This document shows, piece by piece, positions 1,446 to 62,290 of a stretch of DNA of 64,000 bases. The DNA lies in NCBI GenBank assembly GCA_037043015.1, contig CM073321.1, forward strand, positions 4,283,001-4,347,000, in the 5' to 3' direction. The notes under the pieces were generated by a model. That model searched no databases. It was given only the letters and a program-made list of their open reading frames with translations, and was not told the origin of the DNA. The position numbers and the translations under genes are program-made. Within the stretch, counting starts at the first letter, position 1; each line of letters opens with the position of its first letter. Source of the stretch: Bryum argenteum (taxonomy: Eukaryota > Streptophyta > Bryopsida > Bryales > Bryaceae).

Positions 1446-2275
1446 TTTTATTCTTATCGTTAGTATTACTTATTTTGTGACGTTCTATTAGATTTATACT
1501 TTCATTCTTGAGGATTAAATAACTAAATAAACATCTGAGTATTTTAGAAAGTCTATGTGTGAGAAATTGAACCTATTTTATACTTATGTCTTAAATTATT
1601 TGACCTTGTGAAATCATAAGAATAAGATTTATAAAAACCAATTAAAGAAATGAAATTTTTTAGTTCAGTACCTTCTTAAGCTGAAAGGTAAGCTTAAAAC
1701 ACGTAATTCGTTATAATGAGAATATGCAGATTATCAAATTGATGAAAATTGAGCTTGAGTTGAGCCAAATGTCTAGTGTGGGTACATTTACCTCAACCCA
1801 AGCTAAACCCACATTAATTATCTCAAAATCAGTGAAGAATACCATTATAAAAAATTACGTGTTTTAACCGAATCGAGTTTAATTCATCATAATTATATTG
1901 CTTTCGTTGTAATTATTATAATGAGTCATAAACATATGCAACTCCTTACGCCCTGTTATGATGTATTTCACACAATATAGTATAATTTATATTTATTTTT
2001 AAGTATTGTGGTTAATCTTGGACATTTCTTTGTTTAAAAAGATGTTCATACTTCAAATTAAGGATTGTAAAACTTATTTACGTTTATTGAAATTATATTT
2101 TTGATATTATTTGTATAAAATATACTTTTAAATGAAGAAGCTTCGCTATAAGACTATCTTAGAGTACTCGATAATATATCCTGACTGATAACTCATTATT
2201 GCCCATGTACTCAACACTCTATTGTCTAATCCACCTGATTTTGAATGCTGCTTGCAAAGTAGAAAAGACTCAGCC
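1446..2275. other. AT-rich sequence, no gene seen
   Basis: AT-rich sequence with no convincing coding potential or repeats. Confidence 0.5.
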
Positions 2276-2280
2276 TCATT

Positions 2281-2544
2281 GTGAGGCTTCCATCGTTAGC
2301 AATGCCTTCAGAACGTAGAATGTTCAGCGTTTTAGACGCAGAGCTGCCTACAGCAACGAATTGGCTTGATGTAGAGTGGGTGCTAATTCTCTTCAAATTC
2401 TGTAGCAATGGTATCGAGTTTCTTGAAAAGCGCAAGAAGTTTATTGGCCCTGTTGGTAGTCTTATATTACGTTCCTTCGAGCGCAAAACATCACAGAGGC
2501 GAAAAGATTGGCCTGAGAACAAATCGTCGTTTGAACAACCTTAG
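2281..2544 (+). pseudogene. Degenerate fragment: hAT-like tail joined to a gene A family fragment
   Basis: An 87-codon frame made of two unrelated-looking parts. Bases 2418-2523 are close to 9230-9335 inside gene A: both encode FLEKRKKF-type sequence followed by GPVG, RSFERKT and DWPENK, with only scattered base differences. The first part (about 2300-2410) contains PSERRMFSVLD and then a Leu-rich stretch, which recalls the C-terminal dimerisation region of hAT transposases; that resemblance is weak. I read this as a relic of a gene A family copy next to hAT sequence, not a gene. It shows that the gene A family is repeated in this genome. Confidence 0.6.
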
Positions 2545-4766: not shown

Positions 4767-5254
4767 TTTTTCATGATGGGACCTCCACGTCCCACCATCG
4801 CCGCCAACGCACCGTCCATCCCCTGACACACTCCACCCCATCCGGACTCATTAGTTTCCTGCATTCCCTCTCTCTCCTTTGCTATTTGCGGGACTCGTGC
4901 ATCGTGGTTTTGTCGTTAGTGTATCTCCTTTGCGCCATTTGCGACTCGTCCATCGGGTTTTGTCTCTTTTTATCTCCTCTGCGCTGCATACTCGTGCCAC
5001 TCGTTTTGTCGTTTTGCGCTTGATTCGCGCCATTTTGCTTCAAAAGTCGTGCGTGAGTCTTTGTAGGGGTTTGCGCCGGGGTGAGGGTGCGAGGCTCTCC
5101 GATTGAGTGCTTGGCGGAGGTATTTCTTGAAGCTCTGTAGTTTAGTGCTTAGCGGAGGTTTAGGGTTTCGATTTCTAGTTGAGTGCTTGGCGGAGGTCGG
5201 TTTTGCTATGTTGTTGAGTGCCCGTCGTTGAGGCGATTTTGTTTCTCCGCAGTG

Positions 5255-5594
5255 TTTTCGTTGGGCGGAGGTGCCGCCGCTCGGGAGCCAGCGGTGTTTT
5301 CGGAGGTTCTCGGTGTAGGCGCTTTTTCGCGGGGAGGTTTCGGAGGTGCCGCTCCGCAGGTGTTTTCGTTGAGGCGGAGGTGCCGCTGCTCGGGGGTGCG
5401 TCGCAGTGTTTTCGGAGGTTCTCGGTGTAGGCGCTGTGTTTTCGGAGGTTCTCGGTGTAGGCGCTTTTCCGCAGGGAGGATTAGGAGGTGCCGCTTTTCC
5501 GCTTGTGTTTTCGTTGACGCGGAGGTGCCGCTGCTCGGGGGAGCCCATAGTGTTTTTGGAGGTTCTTGGTGTAGGCGCTTTTCCACAGGGAGGA
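5255..5594 (+). repeat. GC-rich tandem repeat, three copies of about 90-146 bp
   Basis: Copies start near 5255, 5360 and 5506. Each carries GTGTTTTCGTTG, GGAGGTGCCGC, TCGGAGGTTCTCGGTGTAGG and CGCTTTTCCGC in the same order. The middle copy holds an extra internal duplication of about 34 bp (5407-5462). The region is strikingly GC-rich between AT-rich flanks. Long open frames in several registers here come from repeat composition and I do not treat them as genes. Confidence 0.85.
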
Positions 5595-5900
5595 AGGTTA
5601 TCTGCATTTGCTTGCCGGATTGGGGTTCTGCTTCCCGGCTACTTCTGCTTTTTGGAAGTGATTAGCGGCGACAGAAAATTCCTGAATTCTTCTTCCTCGT
5701 AAGTCCTCTGTCCCAATTTAATCTACTTTGATTACATCCCATTTGATTGCATCCCATTTGATTGCATCCACGCATTTTCCGATTCATTGCAGGTAGGAAC
5801 TGGATTTAAGCTAAAATTTTCAATCTCTCATCAGATTTTGCCATTCTTAGTTTGAGATTTAGCTCGACGTGAAGTAGTTGCGCAATTTAATTGAGCCGGT
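5595..5900 (+). promoter_or_regulatory. Possible 5' UTR exon and intron of an unidentified transcript
   Basis: A strong donor (CTCGTAAGTCC, GT at 5699) and acceptor (TTCATTGCAG, ending 5792) bound a 94-bp candidate intron. It contains three tandem copies of a 15-bp unit (TTTGATTGCATCCCA) at about 5730-5770. There is no convincing coding frame on either side, so this may be a non-coding leader, or chance. Confidence 0.3.
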
Positions 5901-6494: not shown

Positions 6495-6838
6495 TACAGT
6501 TTAGCTCGAGTCGAGCTAAACTGTAGTTGTCAGAGGCGCTAGCTGATCTATTGTGTGGTCTATTCACTGGTCTTTGCAGTTTAGCTCGACTCGAGCTAAA
6601 CTATAGAGGTCAAGAAAGGCAAACAACGGAGTCCTAATAACGACGTAGTTTGAGGATAAGGCCAAAGGGTAAAGGCTACACTACAATGACGTTGAAATGC
6701 AATAACTACACAATTGTCCCTACAGTTTAGCTCGACTCGAGCTAAACTGTAGAGGCCAGTTCCGTTAACAGTTTAGCTCGAGTCGAGCTAAATCAGAGGG
6801 GCTCGTGCCAACAACGCTTTAGCTCGAGTCGAGCTAAA
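6495..6838. repeat. Cluster of five perfect odd palindromes upstream of gene A
   Basis: Five copies of one palindrome lie at 6495-6525 (31 bp), 6578-6602 (25 bp), 6721-6751 (31 bp), 6772-6792 (21 bp) and 6818-6838 (21 bp). The core arm is TTTAGCTCGA, then a single G or C, then the exact reverse complement of the arm. The longest copies extend the arm to TACAGTTTAGCTCGA. The DNA between copies is unrelated (spacings 83, 143, 51 and 46 bp start to start). The last copy ends 75 bp before the gene A start codon. A one-base centre leaves no room for an RNA loop, so a DNA site for a dimeric protein is more likely than an RNA hairpin. That function is inference. Confidence 0.95.
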
Positions 6839-8417
6839 TCGCAGCGATCTTTGGGATGTACTGAAAACTCATCATGTGTATCGAAACCGACTATCAACTA
6901 ACACAACTTCTACATGAACAAATCAAGAGAAGGCACGAGTTGAAGAGGCGCTCCAAAGACTTCTTCAAACTCGGGGCCGCTAGACGCTGACGAAGACGAT
7001 GGAGACGACACGAAGCAATTAGACTGCTGGGAATTCAAAAACCCCTCAAAAGTAGTTTCATGGTCTGGAAGGTGGATCCCATATACTGCATTTCTCACCC
7101 TTGTCGTCACATACGAAGGGGATGTAGAAGACCCCATGTGCGTTGACATCGACTCCAAGCTGACTGACTTCGACCACGAAACAGAGAAGGAAGTCATAGC
7201 GACGTGCACAACCTTCAAGGAGGATGACAAGGAGTGTGCCTACAACTACGCCATATTGATCGATATCAAGCAGACTCGTTTCGACTTGGGGCAGTTGGTG
7301 GAGAGCTTAGAGGCGTCCAGTTTCGATGATATCAAATCAACACTGAAACAGGATATGCTTACTAAAGCATGGCAAACAAAACAGGGGGGAGCTCTCAAAC
7401 CCAAGCAGCTCGCGATCAAACTGCGATCTGTAGTCTCTGCACTAACGCACGCTGACATTATGGCGAAGACTATACACCTGAAAGGGAAAGCTCCACTGGA
7501 AGGATCTGGGCTGACTGCAATCGGGAGCGGCGTACATAGCAGGACCCCAACGCGCCCGCAACGTGCAACTAGGCCTACCCCAACAACCACCACGGCTACA
7601 GACTCGCCTGTAATGAGGAGAGAAGCTCCCGTGAAGAAGTCGACCGAGGCGAAGAAGAAAAAAAATATGCTCATCTCCGAAGAGGATGCTTTAACGGCTT
7701 TGAACGATGCTATTCAATGCATTCCAAAGAACGTTAATACCGTGGAGGAGATCGACTTCGAGAACGTCAACCTAATCTATTAGAAGTTCTTCACGGACTG
7801 TCAGGACTGTTTCGTCTTTCCGAAACCTGACACAAAGATAGAGGTCGACACGATGAGGATGATCGAGTCCCCTCCCGAATGGACCATTTGGGCTTTCGAG
7901 AAGAAGGGCAAGACCGACTTGATGAATTATCTCATCAATATGCCCGACAGGTCCCAGAAGCAAACGCTCTGCGTCATGCCGAAACTTGATGTGAAGCCGA
8001 ACGGCCTGGAAGATATGCAGGACTGCGAGTTTTGGATCATCAACGGCCAACACAAAGGTTGCCGCCTCGAAGCGTATGCTTGAGTCCAAAGTCCTAAACA
8101 ATTCGCAAAGACTTTCGGGTATGGTCAGCTTTCGTAGTATGGACAAAGGATGAAGCCAAGCTCCGCAAGATATCGGCGTTTTATAACAAAGTGAACCACT
8201 TCACTCCATTTAAGCCGACATGGGCATCGAACATCCTTGCCGCCCGCACTGTGTGGGAGAACTACGGGCGCCAGTGAAATGACATGCAATGAGTCGGGGT
8301 GGCGGATAAGCGTGTGCAAACAAAGCGAGTTGTGTCACAATTCGCAAATTTTGACGTAAGTATTACCTCATGTTGCATCACATATCTACCTTCTATCATA
8401 GCAAATTGTTCCCCGTA

Positions 8418-8446
8418 ACAGTTTAGCTCGACTCGAGCTAAACTGT
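8418..8446. repeat. 29-bp perfect palindrome inside gene A intron 1
   Basis: The arm ACAGTTTAGCTCGA, a central C, then its exact reverse complement. It lies 115 bp upstream of the acceptor at 8561. The equivalent intron of paralog A2 carries a relic of the same palindrome (31906-31926). Confidence 0.95.
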
Positions 8447-9960
8447 CGTTGCTGCTTAATAAACCAAAGATATATACAGCTGTTGAATTCCGGATGCACA
8501 CAAAAGCTAAAGTTACCGCTCTCTTTCACTCTGACATCTTACATTACTTGTGGTATTGCAGAAATTCGTGGACTCCATTCGACATAGGTTCGCCATGATT
8601 GATGTTGCCAAGGCCCAAGGAGAGGTGAAGCACAAGGTCTTGTCCCTAACGAATGAGTGAAAGATTATCACCTTCCCCAAGATCTCGGAACCCGTGGGCG
8701 AGTTGATTGGAAGTGTTGCCCAGGGGACCCTTATCGACCCCTACTCCTTGAGGCGGTGTGTGACAAGCCAGGGTTCAAACCAGACAAATGATCAAACCTT
8801 GTCGAGGGAATTTTTTAAGAACCTCGGTAACCTTTCGGAGTCAGACCATAGAAAACTCTGTTCACATATGTTGAATAGGTCAGGTCCGTCACGGAAACTG
8901 GAGTACCCGAAGGTTACTCTCAAACAACCGGTAACTTTTCTTGAAGATTGCTACTCCGTGAAGGAGTACGTTGAACGGTTGAAGCGTAAGGCGACCGCCC
9001 AGCTTCAGATCCACAAGATCAGTCCCCAACTCGGAATCTTCAAGAACAACGAGTTCGACGTGGATGCGTGGAAGAAATTCAAGAAAGACTTCCACGTCAC
9101 GAAGGCCTCAAAGCGCGCACTCTTGGAATGGGGGATTCCTGATAAGTACTACGCAGATCAGAGGCAAACCCAGCACATGAATACCAGCTGTGAAGATCTC
9201 TCTCCCTACGCGAAGAGGTTCTTTGAGGTGTTTCTCGAAAAGCGCAAAAAGTTTACTGGCCCTGTTGGTACTCTCATATTCCGTTCCTTCGAGCGCAAAA
9301 CACCACAGAGGCTGAAAGATTGGCCTGAGAACAAATGGCCAGAACCTGCAACCGAGATGAACGTCGGAATCATCGACTTCAGATTGGTTCCGGGTAGTTG
9401 TAGTTCCTCAGCTGATTCCTCGCCTGACCACCCATTCTTTGAAATGTTCATGGCGATCTTATCGTCCCAGAACAAGCCAGCTCTGAAAGATGTTCCCTGC
9501 TGGTTATTTATTTGCGGGGGTGAGAGTGAATACGCGCAAGTTGAGGCGTTCGCGACAAATCTTGCATTCTTCCCAGGGAATTATAAGCTGATCCCGTTGA
9601 TGTACTATCCATCCCCGCACGAACGGCTCGCTGGATACAACGCGAAAGCGAAGCAAGCCTCAGCGCCTGTGCGTCTTCTCTTCATGATCAGAGGAAACGT
9701 GAACCTTGCGCGTATGCCTCAGGCCGAGTATCGCGCTCCAAAGCACGCGCTTTACGAGAAGCCGCGGAAGTACAACGAGTCACGGTACCACATGTACCCG
9801 ATCGAGTTAAGGATGGATTTTTATTTGCAGGTCATCCAGCTTTTCTGTCAAGAGCAGGAGAACATTTTTCTTGTCTACGCCGGCGGGAAAGCAGTCTGCG
9901 CAAGCATGGTAAGCTTCGCTGTAGTAAAACTCGATTATCCTCGCTCGCATAGGAACCCCT

Positions 9961-9989
9961 ACAGTTTAGCTCGAGTCGAGCTAAACTGT
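9961..9989. repeat. 29-bp perfect palindrome inside gene A intron 2
   Basis: The same 14-base arm as in intron 1, with G at the centre. It lies 76 bp upstream of the acceptor. Confidence 0.95.
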
Positions 9990-10998
9990 CAAGCTTGTTT
10001 TCAAATCATTTCCGCTTTAGTTACAGATGATTTCAGTTCTTTAAGCTGCACTGTTTTCTTTGTAGATGTTGTCTCTCAACGCCTACGCTATATTCGACGC
10101 CGAAGATAGAGAGGACATCGACCAGGCGTACGATGAAGGGCTTACTCTTGATCCTACTGACTTCTCCGTGAAAGGGAATTTCGTTGACAAAGTCGAGTTC
10201 CCGGAGGTTGGCGCCATGCTCTTGAAAGGCAAGCGCAAAGCTGTTGCGTCTTTGGATGACGAGGCCCTCGACGATGAAGCGGACGTCCCCGACCAGGAGG
10301 ACTCTGGGTCAAGTGGAAGGCAACTTCACGGTGAAGGCAGCACTTACAGCCTTGGTTCCGGAGGGGATGACGAAGAGCAATACATGGAAATCGACACGAC
10401 CCCTCGGACACCGCAGGAGTCGCGTACTGCTCCCGGGCGAGGAGGAGGTAGAGGGAGTGCAAAGCGGAAACGTAATCCCCTGTCGAGGGACTCACCCTCA
10501 AGTAGGTTCAAGGCCGAGGAGAGTGCTGAACTGGCAGCACTACAGCGCAAGGTTGAGGAGGAGATGGCACACCGGAAAAAGTTGGAAGAGCTCCTTGCAC
10601 AGCAGCAAATTGAGCAGCGGGAACGCGAAAAGAGGGAACAGGAACGCCATGACAGGATGATGGAGATGATGGAGAGTTTAACTGCCGGCCACGCATTAAC
10701 TTCAGTGCGGACAATGGCAACCACTCCTGCTACACAGGCTATACCCACTTCGCTGCAACCACTCATGTCCCTGCCGCCTCCAACTACCGAGCCTCCCACG
10801 CCTGCGCCTTCCTCTCCTATGCCTGAGATACGACCTGTGGGTGACGAAGAAGAAGAATCTCCAGGTCCTCCTTCAACTTAGATTTTGGATCGAGTGTATA
10901 GTATTTAAGCTGTAAATGCCGGAAAACACATATACATGTGAAATTTTGTATCAAACTCAGACATTTTTTTGTAATTAATACACGCCTTTACTATTTTG

Positions 10999-11025
10999 CA
11001 GTTTAGCTCGACTCGAGCTTAACTG
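10999..11025. repeat. 27-bp palindrome, one mismatch, between gene A and the FCP1-like gene
   Basis: Arm CAGTTTAGCTCGA, central C, right arm with one A-to-T change (GCTTAACTG). It is 118 bp after the gene A stop and 73 bp before the FCP1-like start codon. Confidence 0.9.
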
Positions 11026-11097: not shown

Positions 11098-12262
11098 ATG
11101 AATTTGTATTGCTTGCCAGATGTTAATTTGGATGACGAAGCAATCGATGTTCCAGTCATGGATGATGTCACGCTTGAATGTTATCACCATGAGCGGGTTC
11201 CACCGGTGGAGGACACACTCAAATTGCATGATGTCTCACATACACAGAATGTTGTTGTTGTCCGTGATGAGATAGATTGCACTGAGCAGTCACTCGGGTC
11301 AATGGGTGTCCAAGTTGACTTAGAGGAGAGCAATTATGATAATCAGGTATTTTCTGTTCCACAAACACTGCTCTCACCCATGCCTTCGTTGCGATGTGTT
11401 TTATGGTTCTGACCTTGAATTCATCGCACCAGTGACGAAAGCTCCCCAGTAATTTTGTCGTGGTGCGCCGTTTTCATTTCAGGTCAACGAAGCATCGGTC
11501 AATGATTTAATTTCTAGAGAAGACATAGGTGGGGTTCCAAGCAAATCCTCCGGTACTTGGTTAAATGTTGTTCTCGACCTCAATGGTATTCTCTGCAGTT
11601 GTACCCCATTTTGGAAAGCTAAAGGATACAGAAATCGTGACTTCCGTATTCACTTAGCGACATTGCCAACCGAGGTGGGGAAGAAGCTTGTATGGGTGAG
11701 GCCCAACTGTAAGGACTTCCTCTCTCGGGTGGCATCGTTTGCTTCCATCACGGTTTGGAGTTCGATGATGACAGCAACTACAGAAGCCATTTGTGATTTT
11801 CTCTTTGGTCCGATAAACCCTATAAGGCCATTACGAATTCTTGGTCAAGAGGACTGTGACATGATTCCCTTGAAATCTGGTGGGAGCCGACCTTTGTTCA
11901 TGAAGGAACCGGGAACTCAGAAGTCTATCTTCCTTAAGACCTTGTCAGCTTATCTCTTCAATAGCTTCGATGGTTTTTATACGGAGGCTAATACGCTCAT
12001 CATAGATGATAGTCCGGTGAAGCACGTGCTTAATCAGCCAGAAAATGTTCTTTTACTACCATCTTGGTCTCACAAGGACAATAGGGCACACGAGGATTCT
12101 ATTTTGTTAGATGAGGTTTTGCCGTATCTGTTAGAGCTCCATGAGTTTGACGGTTCCCTTAGCAAGTTTCGGTTATCGTTACCATTTGGACGTGCCATGA
12201 TATATGATGATCGTGCATCATTAGATCTGTATAATGATATACAAAAGGCATTAATAGAATGA
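11098..12262 (+). CDS. FCP1/SCP-like HAD-family phosphatase homolog with an altered catalytic motif
   Basis: Exon 1 is 11098-11346 (83 codons), intron 11347-11482 (GT-AG, phase 0), exon 2 11483-12262. The predicted product is about 342 aa and the frame is clean. Exon 2 encodes WLNVVLDLNGILC, then VWVRPNCKDFL and VWSSM, and near the end LIIDDSP. These are HAD motif I, the FCP1-type basic and Trp block, and motif III/IV (DD) of the NLI-interacting-factor phosphatases that dephosphorylate RNA polymerase II CTD and other nuclear substrates. Motif I is DLNGI instead of DxDxT/V: the acid/base Asp is Asn, so catalysis may be lost. The first exon is acidic with no known domain. It is one of the few undamaged genes here. 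A relative with DFNSILC lies at 18.45-18.6 kb. The start was chosen as the first ATG in frame; further upstream exons are possible. Confidence 0.7.
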
Positions 12263-13168: not shown

Positions 13169-13487
13169 TAGTTACATCTATTAACTACAGAAGTAATTTT
13201 GTATAGATTTGATAGTCATCACTCTTATATGGCATATTTTGTGAATCACGATTGATACTTACAAGCGAATAAATGGAATATTCTTTTATTCCCATCCTTT
13301 TTCTATCGTTTGTTTAGAGCTATGTCTCTTTTTACATATATTTATATCAATTTTGATGCATCATCTAGTACTTTATGCTTAACATTCATAGATATTTCAG
13401 ATGATTCTCTACTCTTAAAACTCCCAAAGTCCTGCATATTTCCCAATATAACGAATATGGGGTTACTTGTTAGTGATGATCTGATAA
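13169..13487. other. Intergenic sequence, no gene seen
   Basis: AT-rich spacer between the 12.4-kb gene and the CACTA-type element. No coding signal. Confidence 0.4.
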
Positions 13488-24812: not shown

Positions 24813-25630
24813 TTTAGCTTGAGTCGAGCTAAATAGATTGTAGAAAACCTTGACGTCAAAGTTGGAACTCGTTATATCCATATCACTTTATTTAGCTTGA
24901 GTCCAGCTAGCTAGTTGGACATCTAAGTTCCCATATGTTTTTTTGTCAGTACATTTAGCTTGAGTGGAGCTAAATGGTCTATAAGCAAGCTCATTGAGAA
25001 TGTTTGCGCTTATATTTTTGGTGACTTAATTTAGCATAATTCAACAAGTCAAGTTAAATGACATGCCAGCTGCGGTCTCAATCTCCAGAGAAGTAGTATA
25101 GCTGTTGTGATATTTTTACTAAATATAGGTCATGGACTAACTAGACTTCCGTTTCTGTAGATTCTACAGTATTTAGCTCATTTTGAGATAAATGACTACG
25201 GAGACATAGTACTAAGTTTCATGGAACCTCAACATATTATAGGTTGTTGTGATTTTCTGCTATATATCCATCTGCGTCCGTTCACAACCAAAATTTATGT
25301 ATTTATTCTACAGTTTTCAACTAGCTTGATTCGAGCCAAATCAATCTACTTCAACGGATGATATATTTCATAATATTATGTTAAAGCGTGTTCATTGTGA
25401 ATTTTTTTATTCCTATTTTTGTATTTATATAACGCATTTGGTAACATATTGAGGAAAAATATTCTTGATTATACATACCTCTACGATATGATTGGATTAA
25501 GCTTAATTTGAGCTATCAGGATAACCAGCCTTCCTGATTACCTAAAATCTTTCTAATTCCAAGATAAGAGTACTAGAATTCATAGACTTCATCCTTGCTC
25601 ATTGGATTATTTACCTCGACCAGAGCTAAT
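24813..25630. repeat. Array of about eight decayed copies of the gene A palindrome
   Basis: Copies or half copies lie at 24813-24833 (TTTAGCTTGA, G, TCGAGCTAAA: one mismatch), 24891-24910, 24954-24974, 25030-25057, 25172-25192, 25320-25340, about 25498-25514 and about 25611-25626. They become less recognisable to the right. The spacing is about 60-150 bp and intervening sequence is unrelated. This resembles the 6495-6838 cluster but older. No gene A copy is recognisable next to it. Confidence 0.75.
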
Positions 25631-26936
25631 ATCAATGATCCTATTTTTATTGGTTCTATATTTAGTGATAGATGAGTTATCAATCACTAAGTTTAATCAC
25701 TAAGTTTTCAATGTGGTGTATATGTAGATCTACTTAGAAGCAAAATATGAGATTTGTAGTTGCTAAAATCCACCACGTGGAGTTTTATCCGTCTGATAGC
25801 GACTTCGACACTGACAAGAGTTTTCGAGAGGTAGAGCACTTCTTGTACACCCTTCTTTCTTAGTGAGATTGCATTTATGCGATGGTGTGTGTCTAAGTCT
25901 TCAGGGCCATGCATGATTTATGATTGATTCAACTTGGCCGAACCTATCAATGTAGTCCTCCCGGATTGCTTAAAGGAATGTCCACGACTTCCAAGAAGCA
26001 AATAGATCATTAAATTTGTGAATCTTTTCAATGATGGAGGAGACCTTGTTGCCAAAGGTATTTGTCAAAGTGTGGACTTCAAAATAGTCCAAGACTCTAA
26101 TGATGAGCAAGTAAGAGAAGATCAAATGGTTGTGCAAATTGTGAAGTGCTTGAATTTGAATTTCAGACCTGCAGATTCTATATATAGAACAAGGAAATGG
26201 AAACTAAGCCATGCCATTCACAATGGATGGTGACTACTTGATCATTTACATGTTGAGAAATACAACGCTGTTGTTTATGTCCACGATCATCCAAGGAGAA
26301 TTGGAGTTTGTCGAAATATGCCCACATATTCTTGGATATTTGAGCATATTTCATCGAAGTTGTCTAACGTCCTAGACACTTGACGAACACGACGAATACG
26401 ATGAACACGACAACTCGACAAAAACTGCCAAAAATGTGTCGAAGAAGACAACCTTGGGTTTTTTGCACAATTCACATGTTGGACTTTAGGTGGGTTGAGT
26501 TTTTGAGGATCTGGATATTCCCATTTTGATGGAATGCGTGTTTAAGCTGTTTGGAGCACGAGCATTAAGCCATTCGGGGTAGTAAGAGTCATCAATTTGA
26601 AAGTTGAGCATTTCCATTTGAAAGTTTTCTTCGTATCCCAAGTGGCATAGGTTTCTTGAACAACATTATTTTGTGTTGTAGGTTGAAAATATTGTACTTG
26701 AATATGGCCTAGATTGTTGTCATCAACATCAAAGTGTGTCAAAGCCCTTGCATCCCAGAAAGAGAGCATCCCCATTTGCAGGACGTAGAGCTATAAAATA
26801 CCTGGCGAAGACATCTCGACCAACCCGAATCGACGGTCTTAGTCTATCACACGCGCGGCCAATAAAATGTAGATTAGGCCCATGTTCATCGCGCAATTTG
26901 CCCGTCTTTAAGAATTCTCGTATGACAACAACTTAA
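25631..26936. other. Spacer with short protein-like frames, no gene assigned
   Basis: Short frames at 25747-25863 (starts MRFVVAKIHHVEFYPSDSD) and 26000-26233 (LVAKGICQSVDFKIVQDSND) look protein-like but match nothing I know. They could be decayed exons between the palindrome array and the DUF7869-like sequence. Confidence 0.35.
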
Positions 26937-26939
26937 GTT

Positions 26940-28399
26940 ACAGGCCAACACCCATTTTTCAAGATTGGAGACACTTCTATAGCCTCAATCGACGCATGCT
27001 TCATAGCTTGCCAATAGCAAATTACGGCATACGCTGCTCTTCTACATGGTTCAGAGATGTGTTTGGGTCCACTTGGCCCAATTCCAAACATTTTGGTTCC
27101 ACCTAAGCCATTGCCTCCTGTATTAAATGTACAAATGGACAATGCTGTTAGTGATAACAAAAATAGGTTTGTCTTTGGTTTTTGGTCCCATCTCGCAGTC
27201 AAATGGGTATTCCGAGAAGTATATGTTAACTTTATGCTAGTTGGTCCCACTCATGATGACATAGATGCATTATTCGGTTGTTGGAGCATGGCTTTGCATA
27301 AGGAGGATTATCCTGCTTTCCTTCTTCTCATGAAATCTTTCATGAAGCTAGATACGCTTCTTGTCATTCCTCACCTCGTTCAAGAGGTTTCTAACTTTAA
27401 ATCTTTCATTCAAGACTGGTTGCTAGAGGGTGATGAAGCATTGGTTGGACATACAAAAGCGCATCAATTCAAGTTTTTTCTCAATGCAAGTGGGTGCCTT
27501 GTTATGAAGTACAAAATTCATTGCCATGACGATGAATGGCTTCTTAGAGGTGATGATGGGGGCATTAAGTTATGGAAGGAGGATTCGGAAGGTAGATCAC
27601 TATGGCTTAGAGGGGTACGACAAGCTGTGCAGCCAATGCAGATGCGTCATTTGCTTGAGGAGGTGAAAGGAGTTTCAAGTTTTGTTGACCATTGGGAGCG
27701 ATTATCACGCGAGTCAATCGAATCGCAGCGATTGTATGAGCTTTTGTCATACTAGTGAAGCAACGTAAATTAAAGGATGCTTTTTGTATACCTATGGATA
27801 CACCAATATCTCCGCAACATTTTATCCCGTCAACTCTTGAGGAATCTTCAGCTTTGGAACATGGATTTTGGCCATCAACTCGTCTCGCACATGCTTTAGA
27901 AGATGAGTTTACATTGGAGGGGACACTTCGTGAAGAGTTAGGCGAGGACGACCACCTTGTTGGTCAAAGACTTGATCGACCAGCTCCGTCATTCCGAGTT
28001 GGACGTGACCTTTATAAGGGATATTTTGTTGCACTACGTCCATGCGGCACAGATGGCCGTCCATTTTGGCTTGGGCGTGCTATGTCTGATCCAAATTCAA
28101 ACCCAGACTTACTCAATACCGTAGAAATCCTATTCTTTTGTCCCATATCACGGGATAGGGATGTTCAAAAGTATTATACAGATTGGAATGCAAACAAAAA
28201 ACTACGTTGTACAGTTGAGAGAGGCGTCGACGTTTCATCTCAAAGTACAGGTGCCATATTCACAGCATGGAAATCTAAAACAAGGCAACGTAGGGGGAAC
28301 AACGGAATAGGGCAGAATATTACTATTATAGTATCTGAGATTCAAATCAATATCATCAAGGCCTCTTTGGGAGAACTTGCCACATCTACAGAAGAGTAG
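26940..28399 (+). pseudogene. DUF7869-like transposon-related protein, degenerate
   Basis: Two frames, 27057-27755 and 27755-28399, are offset by one base and read as one protein. The first has VQMDNAVSDNKNRFVFGFWS, then GVFREVYVNF-type sequence and VGPTHDDIDALF. The usual family signature is Q-DN..-NKN and VGHTHDDID, so the conserved GH has become GP. The second has YFVALRPCGTDGRPFWLGRA followed by MSDPNSNPD and the 'WNANKK...AWKS' ending usual for this family. A TAG at 27015 precedes the first frame. The family is widespread in plants and algae and is linked to transposon-like genes; its biochemical role is not established. The frame offset and stop mean it is probably not translated whole. 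Confidence 0.65.
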
Positions 28400-29232
28400 T
28401 TTTACATCAATGATGTTCTAGGCATCCCATGGACGCCCCTCTTAGACCCTTTAGTTCGTATTCAGATATACAGTCTTGAGTGTATTACATATACTTGTGT
28501 ATTTTGTTCATTTCCTATTATATATTCAAATTATGGGTATAGTATATATGCTAATTTTAGTATTGGGCCTTTAGAAATTGTCTCTTGTTAAATATTTCCA
28601 GATTCTCGCATCATTACTTCAATTTGAAATGTGTTGTAATCGGTATAAATAGCACATTTGTGTGGAGAGAATTCATCAAGTCATGAGTTGTTGGTGGTTG
28701 GTGAAGGCATTAAGTCACTCGCCGATGGTCGGGGTTCCGGGATCGAAATTGATGGAACTCGTTTGAGCAACTCTTGTGATACACATGACTTGGTGGTGCT
28801 AGTGTATAGGCAGGAAATAAATAGTGCCAATCACCCAACCTCGTATCACCAATCTACGAAAAGTGCTTTATATAGTGCTAACAAAAGTGGTCTTTATCAC
28901 TTTGTTTTATTTTCTTCATAATATGACTTACGTTTTACATAATTGTTTGATCTAAGTAGACCTCCCAATTTATATGGAAATTTTATTTTCATAATACATA
29001 TGCTTACGGTTGACCAATAATAGAGTGAATTTTAGCTCGATTGTACTCCATGTATCAATTTGGGAAATAATTGTTCTCCCATTATAACAAATACTGGGTT
29101 TAGGACGCAATTTTGTGTGACATAATTATTTGTAATTAATTCAATCTAAGCTTGCACTAAATGTTTATTTGTAAGTAATTTCCAATGTTTGTATTTCATG
29201 TTAAATTTTGCTTGTTTTGAATATGCTTACTG
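28400..29232. other. AT-rich spacer, no gene seen
   Basis: A short frame at 28658-28921 has no support from composition or homology. Confidence 0.4.
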
Positions 29233-30061: not shown

Positions 30062-30554
30062 GCTCTCCAAGAGAAGATTTTTGTCGGAAATAAGTCTTTA
30101 CCTATAGATATAATTTTAAAAATTATGGACCTCAAATAGACATTTCATAGTCCATTTGGTCTGCGACTACCACATGGTGCCTATGTATAGTATAGAATCA
30201 TTCATATGTATGTCTTTTCATCAATGTTGTGAATTTATCAACATATATATGTATACAACAACATTATTAAATAAACTTGTAGTCTTCATTAAGACTCTTC
30301 TTCATCATGGCTCATGGATCCCATTCATTGCCGATGTTAGGTACTAATTTTTTACCCACATCTTCTACTATATGGCTGGTATATTTGTTCTATATTCTCT
30401 AAACTTACCTCAAGACAAATTCTGCTCCACAATGTATTGGTAATTGATGTCCAATTATTGTCATAATTATCGTTGGGTTCAACAACTATTTTTGTTCGGC
30501 AACTATTTAATAGTCTTAAAATGTGCATTTTGTCTCATTTTAACAAATATGGCC
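30062..30554. other. AT-rich spacer, no gene seen
   Basis: No coding signal between the two convergent pseudogenes. Confidence 0.4.
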
Positions 30555-32323
30555 TTAAATCCGCTTCCTGGAATGGTGGACATCCGCGGTATACGAATGT
30601 AGAACTCTAAGCGCAACTCTTTTTCGTTGATGCTGAGGTCGTGCTCCCCTATACATTCTCGGCTTCACGTACATGGGCAATTCTCGGGCATAGAATGTGT
30701 CGGGAATGTTATTGATCACATCTAGTGCATGGCTGCTCTTCTTTAAAAGAAAAAAGAGCGGGATGAGGTGTATGTCGAGGACTTTTCCCTCCTGGATGTC
30801 GTCGAAAAGCTCGTTGTCGACATGACAGTATGTTGACGACTTGGACTTATACTCATCCTTCATCTTGTAGAAGTACACAAGGCCTTGCGCATTTTGACTT
30901 GTGGTCTCCGTGACCCAAAGCCACATCTCAGGAGTTCAAATTGTGGGGACTGTCACCCATTTCGTCCACGCATTCAAAAAGTCTAATAAGTAGATATTGG
31001 CTATATCGTCTACTCTACTAGTGTAGCCCGGGACGCATCTGAGATTGATGATGCCCAGCGCGCATCTACCTTCACCCTAAGTGTAACCATGCTCCCAAGG
31101 CCTGAAGTGGAATGTCGTCGTATCCAACATTTAATGGTAAAGAACCGGGTTTGGCAGCTGAAATTGGTTCCTTTTCACATCCAAGAATTTTTTGAAGAAC
31201 TCCACAACATACTCAGAGATCTCTTCAGCAAATTTGTTCTTCGACTTCTTCTGGCGATAGTCGCTAAAGAAGGTGTCCCCGGGAACAGAGAGGAGCATCG
31301 CTATTGTCTGATGCTTAACGTTATAATTGACTTTGAACATGTCATTCTTGTCAACGACAAAGCTATTGTCACTGTCAAATAAGCCCAGTGATGGCTTGAT
31401 GTTGTACAACTTTTTGGCAACACATTCCTTCTTCTTACGCTTCTCCACCCACATCTTAGCCGAGACGCATTCCTCGTAGTTGATCCTCGGCCTTTTCACG
31501 GAGACCTTGGAATACGGAAGGTCTCGACCGTCGTCTCAATGAGAAGATGTTTAGCCAAGGTCTTAAAGTCATACTCCTCCAATCCTCCCATGGACTTAAA
31601 GAATTCACGATTAAGGACAACATCCTTGGCTTTCAAGTCCCAATCATGAGCTTGGTTAAAAGGCTCGCAAATACCGAGGTCAATTAACTCTCCTAGGCCG
31701 TGCGCGATGATAACCCTAGATCACAGCTGGTATACCTTCTCTGGAGCAGTGCTGGTTTCCAATTCGTTGATGAGGTCTGTTGGCTTCAAGAGCTGCTTAG
31801 TTCTTTTTGTGTTCATGCTCATGAAGCGTTCCATTATGGCAGACTCAAAATCTTGAAGAAAAAACAGAGACGTAATTAAGAAACATAGCAAAATCAAATA
31901 GGAGGTTTAGCTTGGCTTGAGCTAAATTCCTCGCAGTCAAGTTGAAATGAAAATCTAGTATGTTGCAAGACCTATGCGATACTTCTATCGGGCGAGTGAA
32001 TGCTCGATCAATTCAAGACCGGACTTTGGCTGCGTACTATACTTCGAGAGCGACTCGTAGGCCGTCCACACACTCCTCACACCTAAGATGTTCGTGAACC
32101 ACAAAAGTGTGAACGTTCCAGCCTTGTTGGACTCGATTGCCATGATGGGCACGTCCATCATCATGGTTGCGTTAGAATGCCAAACAACCTCTGCTCGCCA
32201 AGTCTTAAGCGGAGATGTCACGGCGTCCACACGTTCGTCGGACATCCGTTGGGGGTTAAGAGACCGTCCGTGACTTAGATATTTTAGACTTTTTACTAAG
32301 GCTAAATGGCCATCGACGTGCAT
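30555..32323 (-). pseudogene. Gene A2: diverged paralog of gene A, truncated and broken
   Basis: The minus-strand order matches gene A. 32323-31985 has NILGVRSVWTAYESL (gene A NILAARTVWENYG). An intron of about 120 bp follows. Then come FESAIMERFMSMN (gene A FVDSIRHRFAMID), VVLNREFFKSMGG (TLSREFFKNLGN), NYEECVSAKMWVEKRKKK with SLGLFDSDNSFVV (LEDCYSVKEYVERLKRK, QLGIFKNNEFDV), YVVEFFKKFLDVKRNQF (YAKRFFEVFLEKRKKF), and from 31050 GIINLRCVPGY (GIIDFRLVPGS). It stops before the part equal to the gene A YAGGK motif. Stops include TAG at 31982-31984 and TGA at 31721-31723; a frame change lies near 31500. Similarity is moderate, so the duplication is old, while the intron position is kept. Confidence 0.7.
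31906..31926. repeat. Relic palindrome in the conserved intron of gene A2
   Basis: TTTAGCT at the left and AGCTAAA at the right bound a 7-base imperfect centre, the same outer arms as the gene A palindrome. It lies about 50 bp upstream of the A2 acceptor, in the intron equivalent to gene A 8356-8561. Confidence 0.7.
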
Positions 32324-32640: not shown

Positions 32641-32920
32641 CCATTTTCAAATTGCAACGGTCATATTCAGAGTTTGATGGTATATAAGAGAAGAGACATA
32701 GAGTCTCACTTCACTTCTGAATTACTTCCCAAAGGCTTAAAGCAACATACATCCGGTTATGTATTCATTGCTTAGTAAGCATTGAGTTCAGAAGTGAAAA
32801 TTTCTGTAAGGAACTCTTGACATTTTTTTACACTTCCCGGTTCCATCACACTTGTAACTTTGAGGTGTCTTATTTATCAAAATAGGGCCTGCTGCATATA
32901 AGCCTTGGTGTAGAGACATC
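32641..32920. other. Spacer upstream of the hAT transposase
   Basis: The sequence GGTATATAAGAG at about 32680-32692 could be a TATA box for the downstream gene. Nothing else is seen. Confidence 0.35.
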
Positions 32921-35771
32921 ATGACGGAAGGCAAAGCGTTCGGGTCCTTCATACAGTGCTCCTTATGTCACGTAAAAGTTTCCAAGAAGAAGAGTTGGAA
33001 TGTGAGTCATTATGGGTATGAGAAGATTCCAGGACATCGGGATTCGAGTTCTGCCATTTGCCCAAAGCTGCAGAGGCAAATTAGGCAGCTATTTTTAAGA
33101 TGTGGGGGGGACTTCCCTCCATATAACGGAGAATTGGACAGATTTCTTGGTGAATGTTCCCTCACTCCATCCACGAACGTTCTGTTTGCCTCAAAACATG
33201 GCATTCCAGAAACCCCTAGGAGTGACTCTTCTGTAAGGTCCTCTTTAGGCACCCCCATGAATTCAGCAAATCCTATGGTTGGAGCAACCTCTGCTTCTTT
33301 CATCCTCATGAGAGGAATTAAGGATAATCGCCCAATGATTGGATCTATGAAGCAAATCAAGCAATCTGCAATTGAAGCTACTTTTGCAGAAGCGGATAGG
33401 CAGGAGTCGGATAAACTTTGGGCGAAATTTTTCTATGAAGCAAATATACCACTCTCTGTAGCCCGGAATTATGCGTTCAAAGTAGCTGTGATGAAGACTG
33501 CTGAATTTCGAAAATCCTATGCTCCACCATCTTACCATGACATTTGGACAAGGTTGTTGGGAGATATAAATATTGAGTTACAAATGAAACTAGACAGTAG
33601 ACTCTCGGAGAGCCTTCGGAAGTATTGCGGAACTTTGGCTATGGATGGATGGTCATTTGTGACTATTCGCCCTTTGGTGAATGTGATGCTCGTGACTCAG
33701 GCTGGAGAGCTTTTTCTTGGAGCTGTAGATACTAATGGTATAGAAAAGACAGCGGTGTACATATCATCTCTCATGTTGAAGTACACAGAAAAAGTTGGAC
33801 GAGAGAACATTATCCAAGTATGCACTGACAATGCTTTTGTAATGCTCCATGCTTTGAGAATAGTCCTTGAGAAATATCCACACATTTTTATGCAAGGGTG
33901 TGCAACACATGCAATGGACTAGTTGTTGGAGGTTTGGGAAAAGGTGGTAGAACGGCGAAAACTTTGTTCATGGCTAAGAAGATGATTAGATTTATCAAAA
34001 GATGGCAAATGCCCCTAGTTGCGTTTCGTAAACATGAGGCGAGATTCAACCTAGTGATGCGTGGAAAAACAAGATTTTCTAGCCAATTCATAATGATAGA
34101 TCCTTTGTTGCAGGTCAAGACATCATGGGAGGAAGTTGTTGTTGATCCTATCTTCACAACCCATACTTCAAAGAAGACAATATCAGCTAGAGATAAGATT
34201 ATATTCTCTCGTAAGGTCAAAAAGGTGGTTTTGAGTGATGATTTTCGGAAGCACTGCAAAAGATTACGGGATATGGTGGCCCCCGTAGTCTATGCTCTGA
34301 GAGAATTTGACGGCAAGGCTCCTAGTACGGGCAAGGCTTGGCATATCATTTGTGTTCTTCCGAAGCATGCCCATACTTTGCATGCACCGCCATTCTCTTT
34401 GGAACCACATGAGGTGGCTACCGCAAAGGATGAGTTTTAACATTGGAAACCGTTCATGGCAACCGATTTACATGGTGCGGCTGCACTTCTTAATCCTTAT
34501 TTACTACATGATGCAGAGTTAGCTGACAATCCTGATCTTACAATAGCTTGCAAGAGTGCTTTACAAAAACTATGTCCTCTGGAGGATTATGCAGACGTGG
34601 TGAATGAATGTCTTGCATTTCGAGTAAGGGATCCACCATTCGATGACATGGTGGAGCCTAAGACTCAAAAATTAGCTCCTCATGCATGGTGGGAGTTTCA
34701 GGGTGCTTGTGCTAAACTCCTCTCTCCAATTGCAAAGCGAATACTAGCACAGACCTTATCCTTATCGGCTTGCGAACGCAAGTAGAGTAGCTACTCTTAT
34801 GTTCACGACAAGAAACGGAATCGATTACTACTAAGGAGAGCTGATGACTTGATTTACATATAATCTGACTCAAAATTGCATGCGAATAATAAGTTGAGTG
34901 ACAACGGCAGATAGTATAGAGAGAACATGGATTCAGAGGAAGACCATGTATATGAAGACGATGAGGAAGCTGTCGAGCACGACTCATTGTACGGTGACAA
35001 TGATACTTTTGAATTTGGTGATGAAGACAATGATACGACTTTCTTCCCCGCTTCTAATGATGAAGATGCTCTAAATGTTCACAATGCTAAGGATGATTTT
35101 ATCGCCCATAGTGCTTCGGCGGATGATTTAGAGGACTTGCAGTCGTTAGCACAGTTAATGAGACAAGGAGGCATAGACTAATCGAATAACATCCTACCTG
35201 TTATTGCTAGAAGGATTGTGGTGGAAAACGAGGCGACGGACGTGAAAACCACCCTGTGCAATACTAGTGGCGGCACTATGAGTTCTGATCTGGTCGTAGA
35301 GAATATTGTGTCCTATAGTAAGGATCAACTATCTTTACCATGTGCTACTCCCCGCGCTTTATTTCAACCCTCTACTATAAGGGTTTTGACAACCATGGAG
35401 AAATCCTCTATGGGTTTGGTATCACTTTCAAGAGCCAAATATGGCAGCATTTCTAGTGACTCGGGTAGGTATTTAAAAATGCCAATGTTCCTGGTAGTGC
35501 CACGTGGTTACAGCACATGCTTGGTTCTTCCAAGCCGCGTAAATGTAAATCTGCAACGGATACAATTATTCAATCGAAGAAACCAAAGATCCCTGTTAAT
35601 CTCACAAAATTTGGTACTTGGCATAAATGTGGAAATATACAATATTCAGAAGACAAGCCCATAATCAAACAAGAAGTTCCGAGCGATTATGAATATGATC
35701 CTACGGGGTCTAGTGGAGCTGAAGTGAAGGGAGACAACGATTATAAACAATCCTCTGATGCTGATGAGTAG
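32921..35771 (+). pseudogene. hAT-superfamily transposase pseudogene
   Basis: The start at 32921 gives a BED-like zinc finger region (CSLCHVKVSKKKSWNVSHYGYEKIPGH). Next are a DUF659-like block (about 33400-33700: NYAFKVAVMK, LAMDGWSFVTIRPLVNVML), CTDNAFVMLHALR and GCATHAMD (about 33820-33920, catalytic region). Then come FIKRWQMPLVAFRKHEARFN, LLNPYLL and the C-terminal dimerisation segment HAWWEFQGACAKLLSPIAKR to SACERK (about 34690-34785). In-frame stops are at 33920, 34438, 34783 and 35179, with a frame change at 33922-33960. The stop at 34783 sits where hAT proteins have the Trp of CERNWS. An acidic, Asp-rich tail (34927-35180) and a low-complexity end follow. Terminal inverted repeats were not found. 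Confidence 0.8.
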
Positions 35772-43076: not shown

Positions 43077-45989
43077 ATGACGGACGTCCCAGAAGGTACA
43101 GTCTTTCACGAAACGTCTTTTCCAATGAATCGTGGCGGGTATACCGACCCGACCCGACCTGTGGCCAATTTGCCACTAACATCGTCAACAGCAGATCAAT
43201 ACACCCGACCGAGTGTGGCGACACATACGATTTCGTACCCATCAACGCCCCAGCAGAACCGGGACGACCAACCACCACTTCCTGACCGACCGTCTAGTGC
43301 CTACCAGCGGCTTGTCAGGTACAATCCTGACCCGTCCATCATTATGCAAGAGCGTCAGTACGAAATTGATTTACTACGTAGTAGTCGGGCCGAACTCGAC
43401 CTCCGTGTGGTTACTTTGTTGTCTAACCCGGGCCAGGCAGAGCACCCGCCCCTACCAGGTCGGACCCCTCAGTCGGCATCATCTTACCAGGAACCTAGTT
43501 CTCCTAGTCCAATGATGAGCCGACCAGGTACACCCCTAGAAGAAAGTCCTTCCCCGACTACTAGACAGGACTTCGACTCCCATACGGTCCATCAAATACA
43601 GACTATATATAATCAAGGAGTCGACCCGCTAGCAGTCAGACCCGCCCTAGTACCCAACATTCGCACGCACCCACCGGATGTATTAACATTAGATCCGCCC
43701 GTCAACCTTCCACCCGACTATAGAATGTCGACCCTACACGCTTTGACCCAACACCGTCATCAGGCACAGCCGGCGCAACGGGTCTTAGTTACCCAGCCGA
43801 CCGCCACACCTGTATCATCCTCGACTTTTTCCTAGCCATTCTCAGCCAGCACTTATGGTCGATCGGTAGACCCACAGTCACTACCTAGGCAGGCTGTGAG
43901 TCTACCAACTGCACCTGTACAAACGGTCACCCGACCAACCACCCTACCCTATCCGTCGGTGTGTACTTACTGTCACACCCTGGGCCATACTATTGAATAC
44001 TGCCCCTATTTAGTGGCACCCAGACCAATAGCACCAGGTCCGGTACCACCTGCCTACCCGGCAGCGGTAGGACCGACTTACTCAGTTGTTCCGACAGCAC
44101 CTGGTCCAGTACCGCCTGTCTACCCGACAGCGGTAGAACCGACCTACCCAATCGTTCCGACAGCATCTACACTTGTACCGCCCGTCTATCCGACAGGTAC
44201 GGTACCACCATACCCTGCCCAACCGAACGGACCAGTACCACCATACCCTACATACCCGACCGGAGCAGTCCCACCACACCCTGTCTATCCGACAGCAGCG
44301 TACCCAGCCCGCACGACTGCCAGGAAACCAGTGGTCATGCCGACCTATAAAGAAGGTAAGTGTGTCATGACCCATGTCAACCGTTTTGTCAATGCGTTGA
44401 TGCTAAACGGAGAAACAGATCCGAATATATGCATTGCCCTGTTTGGTAATTCCTTAGACGATGCAAATAATTATAATTGGTTCACCAACCAACAGTCGAC
44501 CCTACCCTACCAGGACCTGCAGGGTCTAATGGAGGCCTTTAAATACCGGTATCAGAATATTGATAATGATGACCAAGCCTACCTCATATTCCGTAGTCTC
44601 AAACAGGACACTAAGGAGTCGGTGGATGACTATTATGAGCGTATGATGAAACTGGCCGGTCAGTTCAAGGTATCTCCAGCCGACAATTTCCTACTAAGCA
44701 ACTTTCGAGGTGGCTTGTTGAAGTATTTGCAAGTAGCGACAGTTGGACTACCCAGATCCACCCTGGCACAGGCAAAGCAGTCGGCCAAGCTTGCTGAGAG
44801 CGGACTACCAAAGGAACCCAACCCAACCCCTGATGCCACCCGACCAGATCACGTCGACCGGACAAAACGAGTTGTATGCAAAATATCGAGACATGGAGAG
44901 AGCGACTGCTGGCGGAATCCAGAGAGCGACTTCGCAAAACGACGAGCAGCAGCAGCACCGACAATGGCCGTTGCAGCACCAACTCCTACCCAATCGTCAG
45001 TAGGGCTGACGGGTCGACCCCCGCGGGCTACATTCCCGAAACGAATCTTCCCTTGTTCCCTGTGTAAGCTTATGGACCACCCGACAGACTTGTGTCCCAT
45101 GCTGAAGGACCCAAGGGTCGTCAAATTTTTGAGTCAACAGACAAAGGAAACAAAACCAACCACCTCGACGGTGATCATAGAAGAAGCGCCATCGACTTCG
45201 GTGGGAGTCGTGACAGTAGCTGCCATAACCCGGAGCAAGATACTACAGGAGGAGACACTACCCGACCAGAACCTACCGGACGAACCCGACTGGCACGCAC
45301 AGGAGCCGCTGCAAGACCAGATGATGCAGGACGTAAGACAGTTCCAGTCAAAACTCGAGTCCCCGACTTTTATATATCCACAGTCAAGAGCAGACGAACT
45401 GCAAACCGACTGGGATTCAGAGGCACTACCACAGCAACCGACTTCGCCTCACACGACGCCGACAGCCTCTGACCAAAACATACCCCACTCGACCGATTCG
45501 GCATTAGGTGAGTTACACCAGCGGTTTTGGAACAGCAAGTTGCAGGTGTCCCTAAGAGAGCTTTTTCAACTCTCACCGGTACTGACTGCCCTAGTCCGGA
45601 GTCGACTACACCAACTGGCGTCACCCGACCTACCCCCTACGGTCAACCCTCTACCCGAAGCAGTCGTCATAGCAGCTGCCGAGACGGTAGACCGATACAT
45701 GCCGGTAATATCAGTGTCGGTCGGTAAGAACGTGGTCGACGACGCCCTTATCGATGGAGGCTCTGGGGTCAACGTGATCACAGAGGAGGAGCGTCGAAGG
45801 TTAGGCCTTCCAAAACCGTCTCCAGCCCCGTTCAATTTGAAGATGGCAAACGACACCTTAGCCCGCCCTAAGAGGCTAGTACGGGATGTCAAGATCCACA
45901 TCCATGGCATACCTTACGTAGTAACAATGGTGGTGCTGGACTGCTCGACAGTCAAATCGGACTACCGATTGCTGCTGGGTCGACCCTAG
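43077..45989 (+). mobile_element. gag and protease region of the Ty3/gypsy element
   Basis: A Pro-rich leader frame is followed by a 697-codon frame (43896-45989). That frame has a CCHC zinc knuckle (CTYCHTLGHTIEYC) near its start, a Pro/Tyr-rich repeat (GPVPPxYP, 44030-44310) and the gag capsid core (44340-44810, with DDANNYNWF and LIFRSLKQDTKESVDDYYER). A second CCHC knuckle (CSLCKLMDHPTDLC) follows near 45055, and an aspartic protease with DGGSGVNVI near 45755. A zinc knuckle before as well as after the capsid core is unusual for gypsy gag. Confidence 0.85.
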
Positions 45990-46040
45990 CTCCGGCATGC
46001 TAAGGTAATCCATAATTGGGGTAATAATGAAGTACAGATC

Positions 46041-49000: not shown

Positions 49001-49390
49001 CTAGACGAAACCCGACACACTGCTGCACTCCATCACAGAGCCACGCAGTGGAACAGGGCCCAATGGGCCCAGACACAAGGCCCGACAAAGCAGTACAATG
49101 TGGGCGAGTATGTTCTGTGGCACCCCAAAGGCGCTAACCTACATGCAGGCAAGCTACGTGGCAAGTGGTTCGGACCCTACCGGATACAATATGTTCTTCC
49201 GAACAATACTGTCCTCCTGGTTAGCATCCAAGACTTTGACCCCAACCCGGTAGTAGTCAATGTCGGTAAGCTCAAACCGTACCGAATAGCAGAAGATCTA
49301 ATACCGACGGATTTTCCGAAGCCGTCCCTTAGCAAGTCCGATGTCAAGAACATGGTGCTACGTAATGAAGACGAGCTTCCGGGCTCTTGA
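46041..49390 (+). mobile_element. pol region (RT, RNase H, integrase) of the Ty3/gypsy element
   Basis: The RT core has WLSPIVVVPKKNGKLRICVD, VMPFGLKNAP and the active-site motif FLDDF (about 46830-47200). RNase H follows (HIHTDASDIAVGAVLAQ, 47600-47660), then the 'HGVVDALSR' tail. Integrase has a zinc-binding remnant near 48200, the core start MKWGLDFIGPV (48435) and the C-terminal GKWFGPYRI region (49160-49300). There is no chromodomain. Confidence 0.9.
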
Positions 49391-61782: not shown

Positions 61783-62290
61783 GATGTCCGAGAGGACTTG
61801 AGCATCGACAGTAAATGTAAGGAAAGGAAAGACACTAGGTATGATACCGTTTATACGAGAGAATTTGTACTAAGATCTCGTAATGAAGAAAATAAGGTGG
61901 AGAGAGTGATTAAATCAGAAAGTCACCATAAGGAAGAGTGAATATTGTATACCAATAGGCAATTATAATTAGTGTCATTAATTTGCAAGTGGTGACAGTC
62001 TCAGAATTGGAAAAGTGACGGCGGCCGGCATTGTCAGAGCATTTGTATGCGATTCAAAAAATAGATTAGCATCTCATGTCAGAGACTGCCACTGTTGGCA
62101 GACCATGAGCCGTCATAGCTGATGCGATAATTTATGATCAACTGTGCAAACTAGGTTAGGGGGCGGCTTGTAAACTTTTTATAAATAGGAGTAGGACGAC
62201 GAGATGGTCCTTTTCTTTCTTCGTTTAGCTGGTGTATGTAAGGGTTTGAGACGGTAAGATCTGAGTCCTTTTGTTTAGAGTCTTGAAGTT
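61783..62290. promoter_or_regulatory. Divergent promoter region
   Basis: Between the minus-strand MULE-like gene and the plus-strand gene at 62291. A clear TATA box, TATAAATA, lies at 62180-62187, 104 bp before the plus-strand ATG. For the minus strand a TATAAAC lies near 61851, about 70 bp before its ATG. No other motif was identified. Confidence 0.6.

Follow-up and report, generated by a model that had tools for sequence, protein, structure and literature searches.

Why should eight copies of one long palindrome lie within 4.6 kb of a moss genome, ahead of a single gene and inside its introns? The question is raised by a stretch of 64,000 bp from Bryum argenteum (C1:4283001-4347000, contig C1 being CM073321.1 of the 258.8 Mb, 25-contig assembly GCA_037043015.1), which is referred to below, at its full length, as the window. 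Judged from its sequence, the gene in question, here called gene A, is a decayed copy of a gene from a large DNA transposon family, and the palindromes appear to be cis-acting sites of that family. It is likely that a protein encoded by the element, most probably that of gene A, occupies each site as a homodimer, and that the arrays allow this protein to find its own copies and to cover them in their non-coding parts.

Palindromic sites and the structure of gene A

All eight palindromes reported in the initial annotation were located at their places, seven as exact 21-mers and the eighth with one mismatch; 100 dinucleotide shuffles of the window contained none (0 expected by chance). Five exact copies form an array upstream of gene A (6500..6520, 6580..6600, 6726..6746, 6772..6792 and 6818..6838), followed by exact copies in intron 1 (8422..8442) and intron 2 (9965..9985) and by the mismatched copy (11002..11022). 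The longest perfect units found by reading measured 31 bp (6495-6525), the maximum given previously, and 33 bp (6720-6752), which exceeds it. The four upstream spacings (80, 146, 46 and 46 bp) were identical in another copy at C1:1313698. The earlier description of the palindromes as not being a tandem repeat suits much of the window copy, but other copies are tandem arrays with periods of about 33, 35, 46, 53 and 80 bp. GC-rich direct repeats of about 47-63 bp were also seen ahead of the gene A array (5243-5609).

Gene A was modelled on the + strand with splice sites placed by eye and homology. Exon 1 (6944..8355), whose true start is not fixed, is a relic in which the frame changes and stops occur in frame; it contains a ParB-like motif (IINGQHKG..); it is followed by intron 1 (8356-8561), exon 2 (8562..9908, with a stop at 8658), intron 2 (9909-10065) and exon 3 (10066..10881), which is of low complexity and has a 3' splice end that is not fixed. 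Exon 4 (11120..11346) was delimited by eye in comparison with the relative P0193, and exon 5 (11483..12262) carries an FCP1/NIF-like phosphatase domain (Pfam PF03031, E 8.3e-15) with the motif DLNG. The window gene is a relic, its reading frame shifting in places and being interrupted by several stops, including those at 7781, 8081 and 8658.

The spliced gene A query gave 18 matches, 16 of them in Ceratodon, where they are annotated as proteins of 1291-1587 aa. The NIF domain was present in 10 of these 16 according to precomputed domain annotation and was C-terminal in the three of them that were scanned (P0193, E 4.4e-12; P0194 and P0207), while the scan of the Physcomitrium relative P0208 detected no NIF domain; the NIF exon of the window matched P0192, P0193 and P0205. 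Since the Ceratodon relatives place NIF at the C-terminal end of gene A, the NIF exons (11120-12262) are probably part of the gene, which would run to 12262, and the site at 11002 probably lies in intron 3 and not downstream of the gene as first described. Under this model none of the palindromes falls in an exon, in agreement with the initial annotation. Copies of gene A within families gave dN/dS values of 0.12-0.34, and the protein was therefore constrained during the spread of the element. A piece of about 107 bp from exon 2 was found duplicated upstream of gene A in two copies (window 2418-2524; 9299-9407 in locus L032).

The element and its second gene

Comparison of copies revealed sharp element ends at AACACGTAATTCGTTATAATGG. 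Three elements were delimited in full: E1 (C1:507054-528556, 21,503 bp), E2 (C1:3197611-3226705, 29,095 bp, interrupted by other repeats) and E3 (C1:3020524-3047198, 26,675 bp). The window itself contains a 166-bp non-autonomous element with the ends of the family (1698..1863). Target site duplications were identified in three of the four compared elements (CAAG in E1, ACAT in E2 and TTAA in the 166-bp derivative), so that both terminal inverted repeats and target site duplications, as expected of cut-and-paste transposons, were present. The ends AACACGTAATTCGTTATAATGG were counted 440 + 449 times genome-wide at ≤1 mismatch, and among 100 ends listed there were 16 inward-facing neighbour pairs within 30 kb (mean 1.9 and maximum 7 in 1000 random placements), twelve of them spanning 13.7-29.4 kb, one 4.7 kb and three corresponding to 151-bp derivatives. 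Because the element tips carry this other sequence, the possibility, raised in the initial annotation, that the palindrome is the conserved tip of a miniature inverted-repeat transposable element was rejected.

The element to which the window copy of gene A belongs ends at 13464, with a right terminal inverted repeat on the - strand (AACCCCATATTCGTTATATTGG, 13443..13464); the alignment with another copy (L040) also stops there, at 13464/13465. Its other half would lie to the left of the window, and a related copy at C1:200000-219999 carried a gene B match and an array in the corresponding half. Elements of the family carry gene A and this second gene, gene B, placed divergently. A second element in the window, with its right terminal inverted repeat at 29079..29100 (- strand), retains a relic of gene B on the + strand (25922..28393, by tblastn and DNA similarity), preceded by two decayed palindromes (weak sites at 24813 and 24954, spanning 24813..24974). 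A third weak site, at 31906, lies in the relic of a distant gene A copy (30536..32227, - strand).

Gene B matched the uncharacterised domain DUF7869 (E 3e-29; E 3.5e-42 for the relative P0072), which is thereby linked to elements whose ends are inverted repeats and which show target duplications. It has 227 relatives; among the 120 listed, the named organisms were mosses (Physcomitrium and Ceratodon), most entries bore no name, and one was annotated only as 'transposase'. Three aspartates (414, 539 and 581 in P0072 numbering) were invariant in 30 aligned relatives, a pattern that would suit a DDE/D enzyme. A profile search of gene B against the PDB returned nothing credible, and above the Pfam cut-off gene B had no domain but DUF7869 and gene A none but NIF, a transposase domain of the MURA type being absent. 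A literature search returned nothing on DUF7869, alone or together with transposons, and the titles and abstract openings of the publications listed on moss DNA transposon superfamilies and on Ceratodon transposons and sex chromosomes did not name the family.

Placement and family-specific forms of the sites

The genome contained 8728 sites at ≤1 mismatch, against 0 for the reversed control pattern. Placement was examined in 13 regions (11 picked for listed sites, the window, and a copy on C2, L051, picked for its gene A), with ≤2 arm mismatches allowed. These held 262 sites in 53 clusters, mostly ahead of both genes and in the gene A introns, and only six sites touched a coding alignment. Of these six, splice signals put the window site at 8422 and another in L051 within intron 1, three are at the extreme edge of an alignment, and the last (24043 in the C1:3197000 region) is assigned to intron 1 by analogy only. 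Gene B has a site array of its own upstream, and in E1 and E2 a further site lies close to where gene B ends. The sites are thus not peculiar to one gene, as had been supposed: they precede both genes of a transposon, and thousands are present genome-wide.

Twenty stretches of 10 kb were also examined, 19 of which took in the 100 sites listed first, every one of them on C1, the twentieth being a neighbour without a listed site. Gene A relatives with 76-96% identity over long matches were found in three of them, and others were about 30% identical. In gene A copies about 30-59% identical the palindromes keep the same positions, ahead of the gene, within its first two introns and beyond, so that sites occur in the introns of distant copies as well. 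All seven gene A exon-2 matches listed on C1 before 2.59 Mb had an exact 27-bp site within 6 kb (7/7), compared with 8% of random places; as far as the copies were read, the enrichment near members of the gene A family and in their introns that had been proposed as a check was observed.

In the best-scored part of the exon-2 search, which covered the best 100 of 979 candidates and is a biased sample as regards C1, 76 of 102 matches were on this contig (44.1 Mb, 17% of the assembly), many with stops. Among the Ceratodon gene A relatives, 12 of 16 carry UG or VG locus tags, which we take to denote the sex chromosomes. C1 may be a sex chromosome.

The sites differ between families in a symmetric manner. 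The core TTTAGCTCGANTCGAGCTAAA is common to the families even though synonymous sites between them are saturated (pS 0.76-0.87), and the inner 11 bases, CTCGANTCGAG, are common to all site classes seen. With families assigned by region, the outer bases are CAG..CTG for the family of the window and GnCCA..TGGnC for that of E1-E3, and L051, the copy on C2, has AG..CT. Exact genome counts gave 1323 CAG..CTG sites, 1221 CCA..TGG sites and 3 hybrids, and most dispersed sites of one family carry one type. At positions 11 and 12 the agreement was incomplete, the base typical of the family being present in about 84-93% of arms for the window family and in about 80-82% for E1-E3. Within families, core changes affected one arm at 153 positions and both arms at 1 position; CpG transitions made up 62 of the 155 arm changes, as would be expected if the copies are methylated and in decay.

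A second genome, presumably that of a moss, provided a comparison. A site scan of bacterial and archaeal genomes hit three places, one of which is a 4.3-kb contig (L052) of an assembly named after an uncultured cyanobacterium (AVDCRST_MAG81). This contig encodes a gene B relative (48-54% identity) preceded by three sites, of which one is exact and flanked by CAG..CTG and the other two have a single mismatch each, and we infer that the contig is moss DNA inside a cyanobacterium-named assembly. Gene A matches were found in the same assembly on C243, C269 and C74. On C243 the sites lie in the first two introns and in the gap that separates exon 3 from the NIF exons, with one more past the latter; a weak alignment crosses two of the intron-2 sites. 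On C269 one site precedes the gene, one lies between exons 1 and 2, one just after exon 2, and three further away sit in place of intron 3, the NIF match being absent on this contig. In the site search of C243 and C269 (≤2 mismatches) all seven sites read TTCAGCTCGANTCGAGCTGAA, with TTC..GAA and therefore both arms changed, a form that occurs once in the genome of the window. Closer reading of C243 added four sites, one perfect and two-sided (ATC..GAT) and the others imperfect. Between its exons 1 and 2, the more distant gene A on C74 (28% identity) has a different palindrome, GTTTATCCTCGAGTCGAGGATAAAC, which is perfect over 25 bp. AVDCRST_MAG81 appears to hold several plant (moss) contigs (L052, L055-L058), and the relative P0039 comes from the similar assembly AVDCRST_MAG94.

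The other two places in the scan were one same-core site shared by two Rhizobium genomes (L053 914, L054 567), with neither gene A nor gene B found in the 8-kb loci around it. This shared palindrome is probably due to chance, our own estimate being about 0.2 chance sites in 257 Gb. A bacterial origin was rejected, the single shared Rhizobium site being all that was found apart from L052. A viral origin was also rejected: scans of viral contigs for gene A and for the site confirmed nothing, one giving 22 pattern stretches, 0 of them confirmed, and the other 0.

A probable binding protein and its possible role

The conserved dyad symmetry, the two-arm changes between families and the non-coding placement in both genes argue for a homodimer made by the element, most likely of the gene A protein, on each palindrome. 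Through the arrays such a protein could locate its own copies, cover their non-coding parts and, once bound, might keep the element genes expressed against host silencing, much as VANC does. A DNA site for a symmetric protein, linked to gene A and its introns, had been proposed at the outset and is supported by these data, with self-regulation as the leading idea.

VANDAL transposons, whose VANC proteins provide the closest worked example, are Mutator-like elements. No Mutator domain was found by Pfam in the present family, which has DUF7869 instead. The VANC21 motif arrays of Arabidopsis lie upstream of VANA21 and in the introns of VANB21 and VANC21, mainly in non-coding sequence (PMC5735166), the motif type differs by family, and methylation is lost upon VANC expression (PMC5735166, PMC10398659). 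The moss elements likewise carry element-specific, family-typed motif arrays, mainly non-coding, upstream of one gene and in introns; their sites are odd palindromes of 21-33 bp, whereas the VANC motifs are described as 8-9 bp long and of the same orientation (PMC5735166, PMC10398659). Given this closest example, self-directed control of expression is favoured, and by analogy we tentatively place anti-silencing first, at a little under an even chance. Autoregulation or assembly of a transposition complex come next, autoregulation without anti-silencing sharing what is left with RNA, host-factor and hitch-hiking-repeat explanations.

Other known systems resemble the arrangement less closely. 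In the En/Spm (CACTA) elements, which have CACTA ends and 3-bp duplications, a second element protein, TnpA, binds repeated subterminal motifs near the promoter and the ends. Here, in contrast, the ends read AACACG.. / AACCC.., the duplications are of 4 bp, the sites are distributed throughout the element and gene B encodes DUF7869; a literature search on TnpA and Spm returned nothing relevant. Bacterial REP palindromes are tied to RAYT transposases, as the present ones are to a transposase-like gene, but REP palindromes are themselves the mobile unit and those described here are parts inside a long element. ParB-parS partition systems also have dispersed palindromic sites, and a largely invariant stretch of gene A, IINGQHSVAASK, resembles ParB; the sites here, however, belong to a transposon and the homology is non-significant. 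The partition-like function once suggested would depend on a ParB-like motif in gene A that could not be established. Pfam detected no ParB_N domain in 15 gene A relatives, and a ParB or phage link gained no support from tblastn with a 177-aa piece, for which phages gave only matches with E ≥ 0.3 and plasmids only those with E ≥ 6.

A role as transposase sites, at which the product of gene B (or A) would assemble a transposition complex with expression control secondary, overlaps the binding reading and differs from it in role. Near the gene B terminus, half-sites TTTAGCTC are indeed present in E1 (four within 165 bp), E2 (two within 101 bp) and E3 (one within 101 bp, one at 417 bp), and the sites close to where gene B ends in E1 and E2 point the same way. 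Most sites, however, lie kilobases away from both termini, within introns and ahead of both genes, and the 600 bp at the gene A terminus contained only one decayed site (E1 518, 3 mismatches) and one half-site (E2 533); we consider this role unlikely. Recognition of the palindromes by a host regulator, exploited by the element as promoter or enhancer, would account for sites ahead of both genes, but a single host factor should keep a single site and, in the same genome, each element family shows a two-armed form of its own, which makes this explanation improbable.

Equally improbable is that transcripts fold into hairpins at the sites and feed small-RNA silencing or splicing control. The arms change together between families, as a helix would require, and a triloop hairpin could be drawn by reading; yet the inner 11 bases are kept as sequence, beyond pairing, the single odd centre base leaves almost no loop, and sites also occur ahead of genes. 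The prevalence of one-sided over two-sided core changes within families speaks in the same direction, as a weak point, because many copies are relics. The abundance of the palindrome and its tandem arrays with varying spacers could also suggest that it is a small repeat in its own right, mobile or satellite-like, which invaded the element. This we regard as very improbable, the same gene positions being occupied in a second genome and across families whose synonymous divergence is saturated, the two-arm changes extending over most sites of a family, and no terminal repeats or duplications of the palindrome itself being seen by reading.

Several observations weigh against binding by the gene A product for self-directed control of expression. 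Both the binding and the anti-silencing are deduced from sequence and analogy, and gene B could equally encode the binder. Pfam, PHROGs and PDB profile searches of gene A gave nothing credible outside NIF, and no DNA-binding domain; the ParB-like stretch, compared with 12 of 14 Rhizobium ParB domains, aligned in register at a non-significant level (hhalign P 0.043, probability 1.2%). The catalytic motif of FCP1/NIF phosphatases is presumably DxD, and one of the two expected aspartates was changed (DLNG or ELDG) in all eight loci examined; among 17 gene A relatives DLNG was present in eight and the motif pattern was unmatched in nine. As the domain lacks one of the aspartates that we assume to be catalytic, a phosphatase role is doubtful. 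At positions 11 and 12 about one fifth of the arms in the E1-E3 family do not carry the base typical of that family, and part of the 1323/1221/3 split may reflect inheritance of two old site types without present selection. The cluster at C1:813.7 kb has no gene B match beside it, and E3 has no clear target duplication.

Taking self-directed binding by the element protein one step further, we regard it as possible, if on the doubtful side, that these elements form a superfamily of giant DUF7869 transposons in mosses, so far unnamed, with an addressing system of its own, in which the multi-domain gene A protein, with its apparently inactive FCP1-like end, and the long palindromes change together by family, each family recognising and de-silencing only its own copies. 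If so, a VANC function would have evolved independently, with symmetric sites, and this may help to explain the heavy accumulation of the family on an apparent moss sex chromosome. The family would be a second, independent case of a transposon that seems to mark its own copies with sites evolving alongside an element protein, and its symmetric, family-specific sites make protein-site coevolution directly testable.

The remainder of the window contains other putative mobile sequences, recognised by eye: Ty3-like retroelement reading frames (43836-49390), frames resembling a relic of a hAT-type transposase (32864-35771) and, on the - strand, frames resembling a relic of a FAR1/Mutator-type transposase (58006-61869).

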